Origin: Parapedobacter luteus
Lineage (GTDB): Bacteria; Bacteroidota; Bacteroidia; Sphingobacteriales; Sphingobacteriaceae
Length of the DNA: 64,000 nt
Assembly (NCBI RefSeq): GCF_900168055.1
Contig: NZ_FUYS01000009.1
Span: 62,001-126,000, forward strand
Direction: 5' to 3'
Shown: one piece after another, positions 9,547 to 62,030 of the stretch
Position numbering within the stretch: the first letter of the stretch is position 1
Layout of the letters: each line of letters starts with the position of its first letter
Made by a program: the position numbers and the translations under genes
Notes under the pieces: model-generated
Told to the model about the DNA's origin: nothing
Seen by the model: the letters and a program-made list of their open reading frames with translations, nothing else
The model's database searches: none

Positions 9547-9574
9547 CGAACTATTGGTGTTCGATATCGAACAC
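9547..9574 (+). promoter_or_regulatory. Three-half-site operator (candidate enhancer), region 2
   Basis: CGAACT (9547-9552), TGTTCG (9558-9563) and CGAACA (9568-9573), with an 18-bp perfect palindrome GTGTTCGATATCGAACAC at 9557-9574. The centre is 63.5 bp before the -24 G. Same half-site order and spacing as region 1, lying just after the second toxin gene. Confidence 0.8.
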
Positions 9575-51822: not shown

Positions 51823-51850
51823 GGAACAACCGGTGTTCGATATCGAACAC
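51823..51850 (+). promoter_or_regulatory. Three-half-site operator (candidate enhancer), region 5
   Basis: GGAACA (51823-51828), TGTTCG (51834-51839), CGAACA (51844-51849); 18-bp perfect palindrome GTGTTCGATATCGAACAC at 51833-51850, identical to that of region 2 more than 42 kb away. Centre 63.5 bp from the -24 G. Confidence 0.82.
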
Positions 51851-58423: not shown

Positions 58424-58584
58424 TTGACATTTGTCCACGTGTTCCACCTCGCCGCGAGCGAGAAACTTATATGCCCATGACGGACTATGCGATTGCATAA
58501 TGTCCACTGAAATCAACCGCCAGTAAATACCATTTCAAAGCATACGAACGTTTTAAAAAAAAATTTGTTTGCCAACCTAAAAAT
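58424..58584. other. Intergenic region before the sigma-54 small RNA promoter
   Basis: No gene seen. The only notable element is the interrupted palindrome TATGC-GATT-GCATA at 58486-58499, whose centre is 95.5 bp before the -24 G of the promoter at 58585; it may be an activator site but differs from the GTGTTCG operators. Confidence 0.35.
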
Positions 58585-58600
58585 TTGGCACCCTTTTCGC
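58585..58600 (+). promoter_or_regulatory. Sigma-54 promoter for a small RNA
   Basis: TTGGCACCCTTTTCGC: the -24 part TTGGCAC is a perfect match to the consensus, and GG (58587-58588) and GC (58599-58600) have the correct 12-base step. The predicted start is near 58612. No TATCAA-type IHF site is at the position seen in the permease regions, so another activator probably uses it. Confidence 0.65.
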
Positions 58601-58611
58601 TAACAAAGGAT

Positions 58612-58680
58612 AGGTTTAGGTTGATAGCCCCTAACCCCATTGGGGCGGCCGTCCCGATGTATATTGGGACGGCTTTTTTA
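58612..58680 (+). ncRNA. Candidate small RNA, about 65-70 bases
   Basis: The span begins at the predicted sigma-54 start. It can fold a first hairpin (GCCCC at 58627 with GGGGC ending at 58646; an alternative is CCCC-ATT-GGGG) and ends with a strong intrinsic terminator at 58648-58680. No start codon with a reading frame of any length fits between. The transcript would end about 95 bases before the tricorn-like gene, so it is not a normal leader unless the terminator is read through. It could instead be a leader attenuator for that gene. Confidence 0.55.
58648..58680 (+). terminator. Strong intrinsic terminator
   Basis: GCCGTCCC (58648-58655) and GGGACGGC (58666-58673) form a perfect 8-bp stem, extendable by three pairs into the loop, followed by TTTTTTA. 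It ends the candidate small RNA and any read-through from the kinase gene. Confidence 0.85.
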
Positions 58681-58775: not shown

Positions 58776-61700
58776 ATGAAGAAAATGATTACAATCATCG
58801 TAATGCTGTGCAGCATTTTGGTCACTTCGGCACAGGAAGAGGCCCGTTTATTGCGCTTTCCCGCCATCCATGGCAATCAGGTTGTTTTTACGTATGCGGG
58901 CGACCTCTACGTTGTATCGGTAAACGGCGGCGTAGCGCGCAAAATCACCAGTCATCCCGGTTATGAAATGTTTGCACGATTTAGCCCGGACGGTAAGCAC
59001 ATTGCATTTACCGGCCAATACGATGGCAACACGGAAGTGTTTGTCATTCCGGCAAACGGGGGTGAGCCTAAACGCATCACCTATACACCTACATTGAGCC
59101 GCGATGACTTGGCTGATCGCATGGGCCCCAACAACATTGTCATGGGTTGGACACCCGATAACCAACATGTAATTTACCGTAGCCGAGGCACTTCGTTCAA
59201 TGCCTTCAAAGGCAAGCTTTATTTGGCGCCCCTCAACGGGGATCTCAGCCGGGAGTTGCCTTACTCAGTGGCCTCTTGGGCCTCGTACAATGCCGACGGC
59301 TCGAAGCTGGCGATGAATCGCGTATTTCGTGAATTCAGGACATGGAAATATTACCGGGGAGGGATGGCTGACGACATCTGGCTTACCGACCCGAAAACCG
59401 GTGAAACGGAAAACGTGACCAACCATCCCGCCCAGGATGTCTTCCCGATGTATTACAACGATAAAATTTACTTTGTAAGTGATCGTAATCGTATCGCAAA
59501 CTTGTTTGTGTATGACACACAAACAAAGCAAACACGACAGGTGACCGACTTCAAGGACTACGACGTCAAGTTTCCCTCGTTGGGAGGTGACGCCATCGTG
59601 TTTGAAAACGGGGGATATATCTACCACCACGACCTCCTTAACGGACAGACCAAAAAGCTTAATATCGTTATCGCCGAAGACTTTGCCTCCGGACGCACCA
59701 AACAAATAGACGCATCCAATTTTATCTATAGCGCTGACCTGTCGCCAGATGGAAAGCGGGTGGTGTTTGGTGCGCGCGGAGACGTGTTTACCGTCCCGGC
59801 GAAAGCAGGCGTGACGCGTAACCTGACGCAAAGTAGCGGCGTACACGACCGCAATGTAGGATGGAGCCCGGATGGCCAGTGGGTAAGCTTTATTTCGGAT
59901 CGTACAGGAGAAGACGAATTATACATCCAGAAACAGGACGGTACCGAACCGGCAAAACAACTTACCAAAGGGGGCGGCGCTTATAAATTTAACGCAGTCT
60001 GGAGTCCGGACAGTAAATATTTGCTATATGGCGACCGGAACCAAGATTTATATGTCGTAGATATCCAGTCTGGCAACAAAACACTTGCTGCTCATTCGGA
60101 CGAAAGCACCATCGGCGCTTATACTTTTGGGCCCGACAGCAAATGGATTGCTTATAGCATGCCCGGCAAAGCCCGCGAATTTACCGTCATCAAGCTATAC
60201 AACATCGAGACCAAGAAAACCATTACGGTCACCGACACGTGGTATAACAGTGGCCAACCGGAATTCAGCCCTGACGGCAAATTCCTGTATTTTGTATCGC
60301 AGCGCGACTTCAATCCGACATACAGTAGTACAGAATGGAATCACGTTTATAATGACATGAGTCGTCCCTATCTGGTCAGGCTCAGCGCTTCGACCAAGTC
60401 TCCGTTTACCGAGGAAAGCGACGAAGTAACGGTGAAAACGAACAAAGAAAAGGAAGAAAATGAAGACAAAAAGGCTGAAAACGCTGCAAAAAACGGTGTA
60501 ATAATCACTGTCGACGAGGAAGGTCTGGCCGACCGAGTAGAGAGCTTGCCGGTATCGCCCGGTTCGTATTTCGGACTTGTTGCTACAGAAGATGGGCTCT
60601 ATTATTCCAGTGCCGGTACCAATGGACGAGGATTCAAGTTTTTTAATCTCTCGGACAAGAAAGAAACAGAAATCGGGACTTTTGGAAGTTATGCGGTAAG
60701 TCCTGACAGAAAAAAAATCCTAATCCGCAGCAGCGGCGGATTCTTCATCGAAAACCTGGCCAAATCAAAAATTACGCCTACGAATAAGGTGGATTTGACG
60801 GGACTGAAAACGACCGTAGATCTAAAAGCGGAATGGAAACAAGTCTATGACGAGAGCTGGCGGCAGATGCGTGATTATTTTTATGATCCGGATATGCACG
60901 GAGTAAACTGGAAAGCCATGCACGACAAGTATGCGCCATTGCTCCCTTACGTCAACCATCGGGACGACCTCACTTACCTCATTGGCGAGCTGATAGCCGA
61001 GCTCAACGTTGGGCACGCCTACGTGAACAGCGGCGACCGCCCTGCAGTGGAACGTATACCTATGGGGCTTTTAGGTGCAACGTTCAGCCGTGACAAAAGT
61101 GGCTATTACCGCATCGACAGCATTCTTTCGGGCCAAAGCTGGAACAAAACGCTCGTATCCCCCTTGCGCGCTCCTGCTGCCGGGGCTAAAAAGGGCGAAT
61201 ACATCATCGCCATCAATGGCGTATCCATGAAAGACGTAGACAACCTCTATCAGACGCTTATTGGCAAAGCCGACCAACTCATCGAAATTGAAATCAACAC
61301 AAATCCTGCACCCAACGGAGCGCGAAAGGTCCTTGTAAAGCCGATAGCCGATGAGTCCGCCCTTTATTACCATGAATGGGTACAGCAAAACATCGCAAAG
61401 GTAAACGCCGCAAGCAACGGCCGGATTGGTTATGTACATATTCCAGATATGGGCCCAGATGGTCTCAACCAGTTTGCTCGTTACTTCTATCCGCAGCTGG
61501 ACAAAGAGGCCCTCATTATCGATGACCGCGGAAACGGTGGGGGCAATGTGTCGCCGATGATTATAGAACGTCTGCTGCGCAAACCTGGCTTAGGGACCAT
61601 GCGGCGAAATAGTAAAACAGCGTCCATCAAGCCCGACGCGCACGTAGGGCCTAAGGTATGCCTCATTGACCAGTATTCTGCTTCGGATGGCGATCTATTT

Positions 61701-62030
61701 CCCTGGCAGTTCAAGCATTACGGGATCGGGCCACTCATTGGCCAACGTACTTGGGGCGGCGTAGTGGGCATCAGCGGCACCCTACCATTTATCGACGGCG
61801 GCGATATGCGAAAACCCGAATTTGCGCACTTCGCGGCGGATGGGTCATCGTTTATCATTGAAGGAGAAGGCGTGCACCCCGATATTGAGGTCATAAACGA
61901 TCCCTATGAAGAGTACCAGGGTACCGATGCCCAGCTAACCAAGGGCATTGAGATATTAATGGAGCAATTAGCTAAAGGAGAGGCTACGGGTGTACCGAAA
62001 ATACCCCCCTTTCCAAATAAAGCAAAATAG
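58776..62030 (+). CDS. Tricorn-like protease (S41 family), exported
   Basis: 1084 residues from ATG 58776; a TTG three codons earlier is less likely. Signal peptide ITIIVMLCSILVTSAQ. N-terminal β-propellers of PD40/TolB type (about 25-560: FARFSPDGKHIAF, GWSPDGQWVSFISD), an acidic Lys/Glu linker near 550-575, a tricorn core region, a PDZ domain about 760-860, and a C-terminal S41 domain. Catalytic residues by analogy with tricorn: H747 (NVGHAYV), S970 and D971 (SASDGDLFPW), and a glutamate near 1029 (IIEGEGVHPD). The tricorn family cuts peptides in archaea; in Bacteroidota these are long periplasmic proteases. It has its own terminator at 62044 and lies directly after the small RNA. Confidence 0.92.
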   Translation: MKKMITIIVMLCSILVTSAQEEARLLRFPAIHGNQVVFTYAGDLYVVSVNGGVARKITSHPGYEMFARFSPDGKHIAFTGQYDGNTEVFVIPANGGEPKRITYTPTLSRDDLADRMGPNNIVMGWTPDNQHVIYRSRGTSFNAFKGKLYLAPLNGDLSRELPYSVASWASYNADGSKLAMNRVFREFRTWKYYRGGMADDIWLTDPKTGETENVTNHPAQDVFPMYYNDKIYFVSDRNRIANLFVYDTQTKQTRQVTDFKDYDVKFPSLGGDAIVFENGGYIYHHDLLNGQTKKLNIVIAEDFASGRTKQIDASNFIYSADLSPDGKRVVFGARGDVFTVPAKAGVTRNLTQSSGVHDRNVGWSPDGQWVSFISDRTGEDELYIQKQDGTEPAKQLTKGGGAYKFNAVWSPDSKYLLYGDRNQDLYVVDIQSGNKTLAAHSDESTIGAYTFGPDSKWIAYSMPGKAREFTVIKLYNIETKKTITVTDTWYNSGQPEFSPDGKFLYFVSQRDFNPTYSSTEWNHVYNDMSRPYLVRLSASTKSPFTEESDEVTVKTNKEKEENEDKKAENAAKNGVIITVDEEGLADRVESLPVSPGSYFGLVATEDGLYYSSAGTNGRGFKFFNLSDKKETEIGTFGSYAVSPDRKKILIRSSGGFFIENLAKSKITPTNKVDLTGLKTTVDLKAEWKQVYDESWRQMRDYFYDPDMHGVNWKAMHDKYAPLLPYVNHRDDLTYLIGELIAELNVGHAYVNSGDRPAVERIPMGLLGATFSRDKSGYYRIDSILSGQSWNKTLVSPLRAPAAGAKKGEYIIAINGVSMKDVDNLYQTLIGKADQLIEIEINTNPAPNGARKVLVKPIADESALYYHEWVQQNIAKVNAASNGRIGYVHIPDMGPDGLNQFARYFYPQLDKEALIIDDRGNGGGNVSPMIIERLLRKPGLGTMRRNSKTASIKPDAHVGPKVCLIDQYSASDGDLFPWQFKHYGIGPLIGQRTWGGVVGISGTLPFIDGGDMRKPEFAHFAADGSSFIIEGEGVHPDIEVINDPYEEYQGTDAQLTKGIEILMEQLAKGEATGVPKIPPFPNKAK

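Follow-up and report, generated by a model that had tools for sequence, protein, structure and literature searches.

A site in the genome of Parapedobacter luteus very probably encodes a small RNA of about 68 nt under the control of the alternative sigma factor RpoN, and this RNA is one member of an apparently undescribed set of near-identical small RNAs, each under its own type of promoter, in Parapedobacter and related bacteria. The analysis was carried out on a window of 64,000 nucleotides (assembly GCF_900168055.1, contig NZ_FUYS01000009.1, positions 62,001 to 126,000, forward strand), for which the original prediction had proposed a sigma-54-driven small RNA with a strong terminator at 58585-58680. 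The sequence features on which this proposal rested were confirmed, and its main interpretation is supported, although two of its subsidiary claims failed.

The sigma-54 element and the predicted small RNA

The features of the locus, all on the forward strand, are as follows.

58585..58600 (+), sigma-54 -24/-12 promoter element TTGGCACCCTTTTCGC (GG-N10-GC)
58611..58679 (+), small RNA gene, predicted about 68 nt, with +1 at about 58611-58613
58611..58626 (+), 5'-terminal unpaired seed candidate UAGGUUUAGGUUGAUA
58627..58646 (+), hairpin 1, GCCCC/GGGGC, 5 bp with a 10-nt loop UAAYCCCAUU
58647..58679 (+), intrinsic terminator, 12-bp stem (58647-58658 with 58663-58674) running into T6 (58674-58679)
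58776..62030 (+), next gene, a tricorn-like S41 protease (Pfam Tricorn_C1, PDZ_Tricorn and Peptidase_S41), neighbour in seven of nine species and probably not part of the unit

In TTGGCACCCTTTTCGC, GG lies at 58587-58588 and GC at 58599-58600 with 10 bases between them, which is close to the TTGGCAY-N5-TTGC consensus, the -12 region being CGC in this copy. Such a site is weak evidence by itself, since TTGGCAY-N7-GC occurs 34 times in 2.53 Mb of strand-counted sequence of this genome, and a looser consensus is no more frequent in the window than in shuffled sequence. The evidence that it is more than chance is its conservation. In an alignment of the locus from all nine Parapedobacter genomes examined, TTGGCA, TTTT and GCT are invariant and the 5' part of the RNA is nearly or fully so, at a nearly fixed distance from one another, while the upstream DNA is not alignable. 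RpoN is encoded in nine of nine genomes. Conservation of the terminator alone had been put forward beforehand as an outcome that would speak against a small RNA; the opposite was observed, the 5' core being the most conserved part of the unit and the terminator the least.

The stretch 58611-58680 folds with z = -3.6 into the two hairpins listed above, the second having 12 bp rather than the 8 bp originally described. The first ATG of the protease frame lies 96 bases after the T run. In seven orthologues the terminator keeps all of its pairs (100% of cells paired), with compensatory changes on both sides of two pairs. Covariation over all paralogues had proved meaningless because their terminators are unrelated, and the test was therefore redone on orthologues. 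Hairpin 1 never varies in one of the alignments (A2) and has no covariation support there; elsewhere, however, it is preserved by a paired C/G insertion in two copies (L072 and L074), a GUCCCC/GGGGAC variant (L254) and a G-U variant in two viral copies. The 16 nt at the 5' end are unpaired in the folds of class-I copies, the class to which this RNA belongs. A long hairpin CAACCTAAA...TTTAGGTTG across the promoter (58573-58623), seen in one fold, was not conserved in orthologues and was rejected. Taken together, promoter, short non-coding transcript and conserved terminator agree with an intrinsically terminated small RNA gene as a prediction from sequence, without expression data.

The palindrome TATGC-GATT-GCATA, proposed as the activator site, exists at about 58486 but only in this genome. 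More generally, no conserved motif was seen in the 220 bases upstream, which leaves it undecided whether an enhancer-binding protein acts here; the enhancer-binding proteins of these genomes were not inventoried. The proposed separation from the permease regulon fits, as no operator resembling GTGTTCG-N4-CGAACAC (up to 4 mismatches) lies within 220 bases of any of 16 sigma-54-like copies. Perfect palindromes of this kind do occur in the window at 1262-1279, 9557-9574 and 51833-51850, the last just upstream of an FtsX-type permease frame, in agreement with the RpoN permease regulon of the original prediction.

A dispersed family with exchanged promoters

A search of the same genome found the 38-base core TAGGTTTAGGTTGATAGCCCCTAACCCCATTGGGGCGG at five other places, exact or nearly so. 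Homology starts at 58611, where a sigma-54 promoter with C(-12) at 58600 would put +1. The core was then collected from the nine genomes of the genus, giving 63 copies, nearly all followed by their own intrinsic terminator. A covariance-model search gave 1 to about 14 class-I copies per genome, and in some genomes also returned a related class-II RNA at the edge of its threshold. The exact 20-mer AGGTTTAGGTTGATAGCCCC was found nowhere outside Parapedobacter in a collection of named genomes, and class I was absent from the other sampled genomes of the family apart from one weak hit to an RNA that shares only the seed.

In order to compare the promoters, the flanks of 61 class-I copies were examined. 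The sigma-54 element is present in 13, TAnnTTyG in 30 and a CGTTW element in 11, all just upstream of the same first base, whereas in shuffled flanks these occur in 0.04%, 0.6% and 1.75% respectively; 54 of 61 copies thus have one of the three types, against about 2.4% of shuffled flanks. TAnnTTyG is close to the Bacteroidota -7 element TAnnTTTG, and CGTTW was read here as resembling ECF promoters. A second group of copies (L038, L048, L072 and L074) has TTGGCAT-N5-TTGCT at the same spacing. The same arrangement recurs in two other genera (L414 and L415), while L416 is similar but has GT at -12, and in the 16 sigma-54-like copies GC lies 11-12 bases before AGG. The conserved unit therefore begins at +1, which is the mark of a transcript rather than of a DNA repeat. 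Terminators have been exchanged as well: in alignment A2, RpoN-type copies carry mainly GGCCG-type terminators while many TAnnTTyG and CGTTW copies share a CCCGTTAT...GTAACGGG terminator.

On a wider scale, the 15-mer TAGGTTTAGGTTGAT followed within 45 bases by T6 occurs in 154 of 401 Sphingobacteriaceae genomes, from 7 of 25 genera, and never with the reversed control. Outside the family there was one match, against six genomes with a match to the reversed control, hence none beyond chance. Several architectures share the seed, namely class I (GCCCC hairpin), class II (AAAAACA...UGUUUUU hairpin), class III and an efp-linked version. In the latter, seed and terminator follow the EF-P reading frame in many genomes of several genera (L242, L247, L248, L336-L340, L354, L356-L361 and others), often before a 5-formyltetrahydrofolate cyclo-ligase-like gene, these gene names resting on a reading of the translations. 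Four class-I copies in four species (L040, L045, L079 and L093) lie upstream of a two-gene defence-like pair, an AAA ATPase (AbiLi/AriA-like) and an RloB/AbiLii-like protein, one pair having been checked against PADLOC and Pfam.

Three IMG/VR viral contigs (L232, L233 and L234) carry class-I-like copies with a TAnCTTAG-type element, and two of these contigs have a GH108 lysozyme or a ClpP-like protease gene near the copy; L446 carries a seed RNA with a different hairpin. A looser seed search in viral contigs gave mostly hits without a terminator stem, taken as chance, and searches of plasmid and GenBank phage collections gave no match.

Predicted function and candidate targets

The best explanation, held with fair confidence, is that 58611-58679 is a gene for a trans-acting base-pairing small RNA transcribed by RpoN-RNA polymerase, with an unpaired seed at its 5' end, a small hairpin and an intrinsic terminator. 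In this view the same seed and core are placed under different sigma factors (RpoN, housekeeping-like TAnnTTyG and an ECF-like CGTTW type), so that different signals would feed one seed. The sequences themselves demonstrate the conserved promoter, the common +1, the conserved core and terminator, the exchange of promoters and terminators and the family-wide seed, whereas transcription, RpoN dependence and pairing through the seed are inferences; activator protein, RNA chaperone and target mRNAs were not identified.

Evidence on targets is weak. A scan of the start regions of 897 genes in 1.26 Mb showed no excess over shuffled seeds, and the one candidate checked for conservation (LOG family) failed; comparative target prediction over all nine genomes was not run. 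Among 30 susC start regions there was no AACCTAAA-type match, and only a weak excess of duplex formation was noted. One lead came from anti-seed loci in a related genus (g13), first considered as a 'sponge' RNA, which proved to be trpE leaders (L163-L175, L177 and L253). In at least 14 genomes of this genus the leader, after a short Trp-containing reading frame, carries UAUCAACCUAAACCUA, perfectly complementary to the 16-nt seed, just before its terminator. These loci were fetched by exact match, so that their conservation is biased, and the number of independent non-sRNA loci does not exceed the reversed-pattern control. In Parapedobacter most trpE leaders keep only AAUCAACC.

A broader hypothesis, possible but less likely than not, is a family-wide network in which one seed is served by many sigma factors: the same 5'-terminal 15-nt seed would be delivered in Sphingobacteriaceae by RNAs under RpoN, the housekeeping sigma and an ECF-like sigma, by an RNA at the 3' end of efp mRNA and by phages, and would act on common targets, possibly the trpE leader.

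The closest system in logic is the FopS family of paralogous sRNAs of Bacteroides (PMC11697453), of the same phylum, with about a dozen paralogues per genome, a single-stranded 5' seed followed by a terminator, one 3'-UTR-derived member and a copy in a phage. The present family likewise has paralogues with a 5' single-stranded seed and terminator. FopS is driven by canonical sigma-ABfr promoters, represses SusC-type mRNAs and binds RbpB. In the present family there are also RpoN and CGTTW copies, and evidence on susC is limited to the weak, indirect excess above; RbpB binding and susC repression were not assayed. No relevant Rfam family matched the RNA, but as it is not known whether the Rfam version searched includes FopS, and as no covariance-model or direct sequence comparison with FopS was made, this leaves a sequence relationship undecided. 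The Qrr sRNAs of Vibrio are also paralogous (PMC5568312). All Qrr copies are under LuxO and sigma-54; here only some copies are RpoN-driven and the others have other promoters, and the phylum is unrelated with no sequence relation known. The Pxr sRNA of myxobacteria has a sigma-54 promoter and lineage-specific paralogues, but is a multi-stem RNA whose paralogues, in Cystobacter, lie in tandem and are all reported with sigma-54 promoters (PMC5568312).

Literature searches for sRNAs of Parapedobacter or Pedobacter found nothing relevant. RpoN regulons of Bacteroidota are catalogued as protein genes, and the one such survey consulted, which reports FtsX-type permeases in Bacteroidia, does not mention small RNAs (PMC12316311). 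A paralogous family in which one seed is wired to several sigma factors allows RpoN, housekeeping and ECF-like inputs to be compared on the same targets, in a phylum whose post-transcriptional regulation is little known outside Bacteroides, and provides a concrete entry point in the form of a 15-nt seed, a list of loci and a clean rpoN test.

ALTERNATIVES

A protein-binding role, in which the RNA is made but acts as a decoy or scaffold, for example for an RRM protein through the AGGUU-U-AGGUU repeat, is unlikely but cannot be excluded. The seed holds a tandem AGGUU, many identical copies would suit titration, no target enrichment was found, and RNA-binding proteins bind multicopy sRNAs in Bacteroides (PMC11697453); RRM and Hfq proteins were not inventoried in these genomes. 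On the other hand, a 5'-terminal, unpaired and nearly invariant stretch is the usual form of an sRNA seed, and the trpE-leader complement hints at pairing.

A terminating leader of the protease gene, the alternative offered in the original prediction, is disfavoured and very unlikely. The protease gene follows at a similar distance in seven of nine species, but in the other two (genomes G001 and G002) the same unit lies beside nuo genes on the opposite strand, other copies have unrelated neighbours, and no conserved alternative pairing to the terminator is visible in the folds. The downstream gene is consequently not the same wherever the element occurs.

A dispersed DNA repeat (mobile-element end, MITE or similar) that happens to carry terminator-like hairpins is equally improbable: there are several copies per genome, some on short contigs, some sharing longer flanks and some on the three viral contigs, but the conserved unit begins at the +1 of three different promoter types, most copies share no flanks, terminators differ but are almost always present, and the RpoN copy keeps its position over species.
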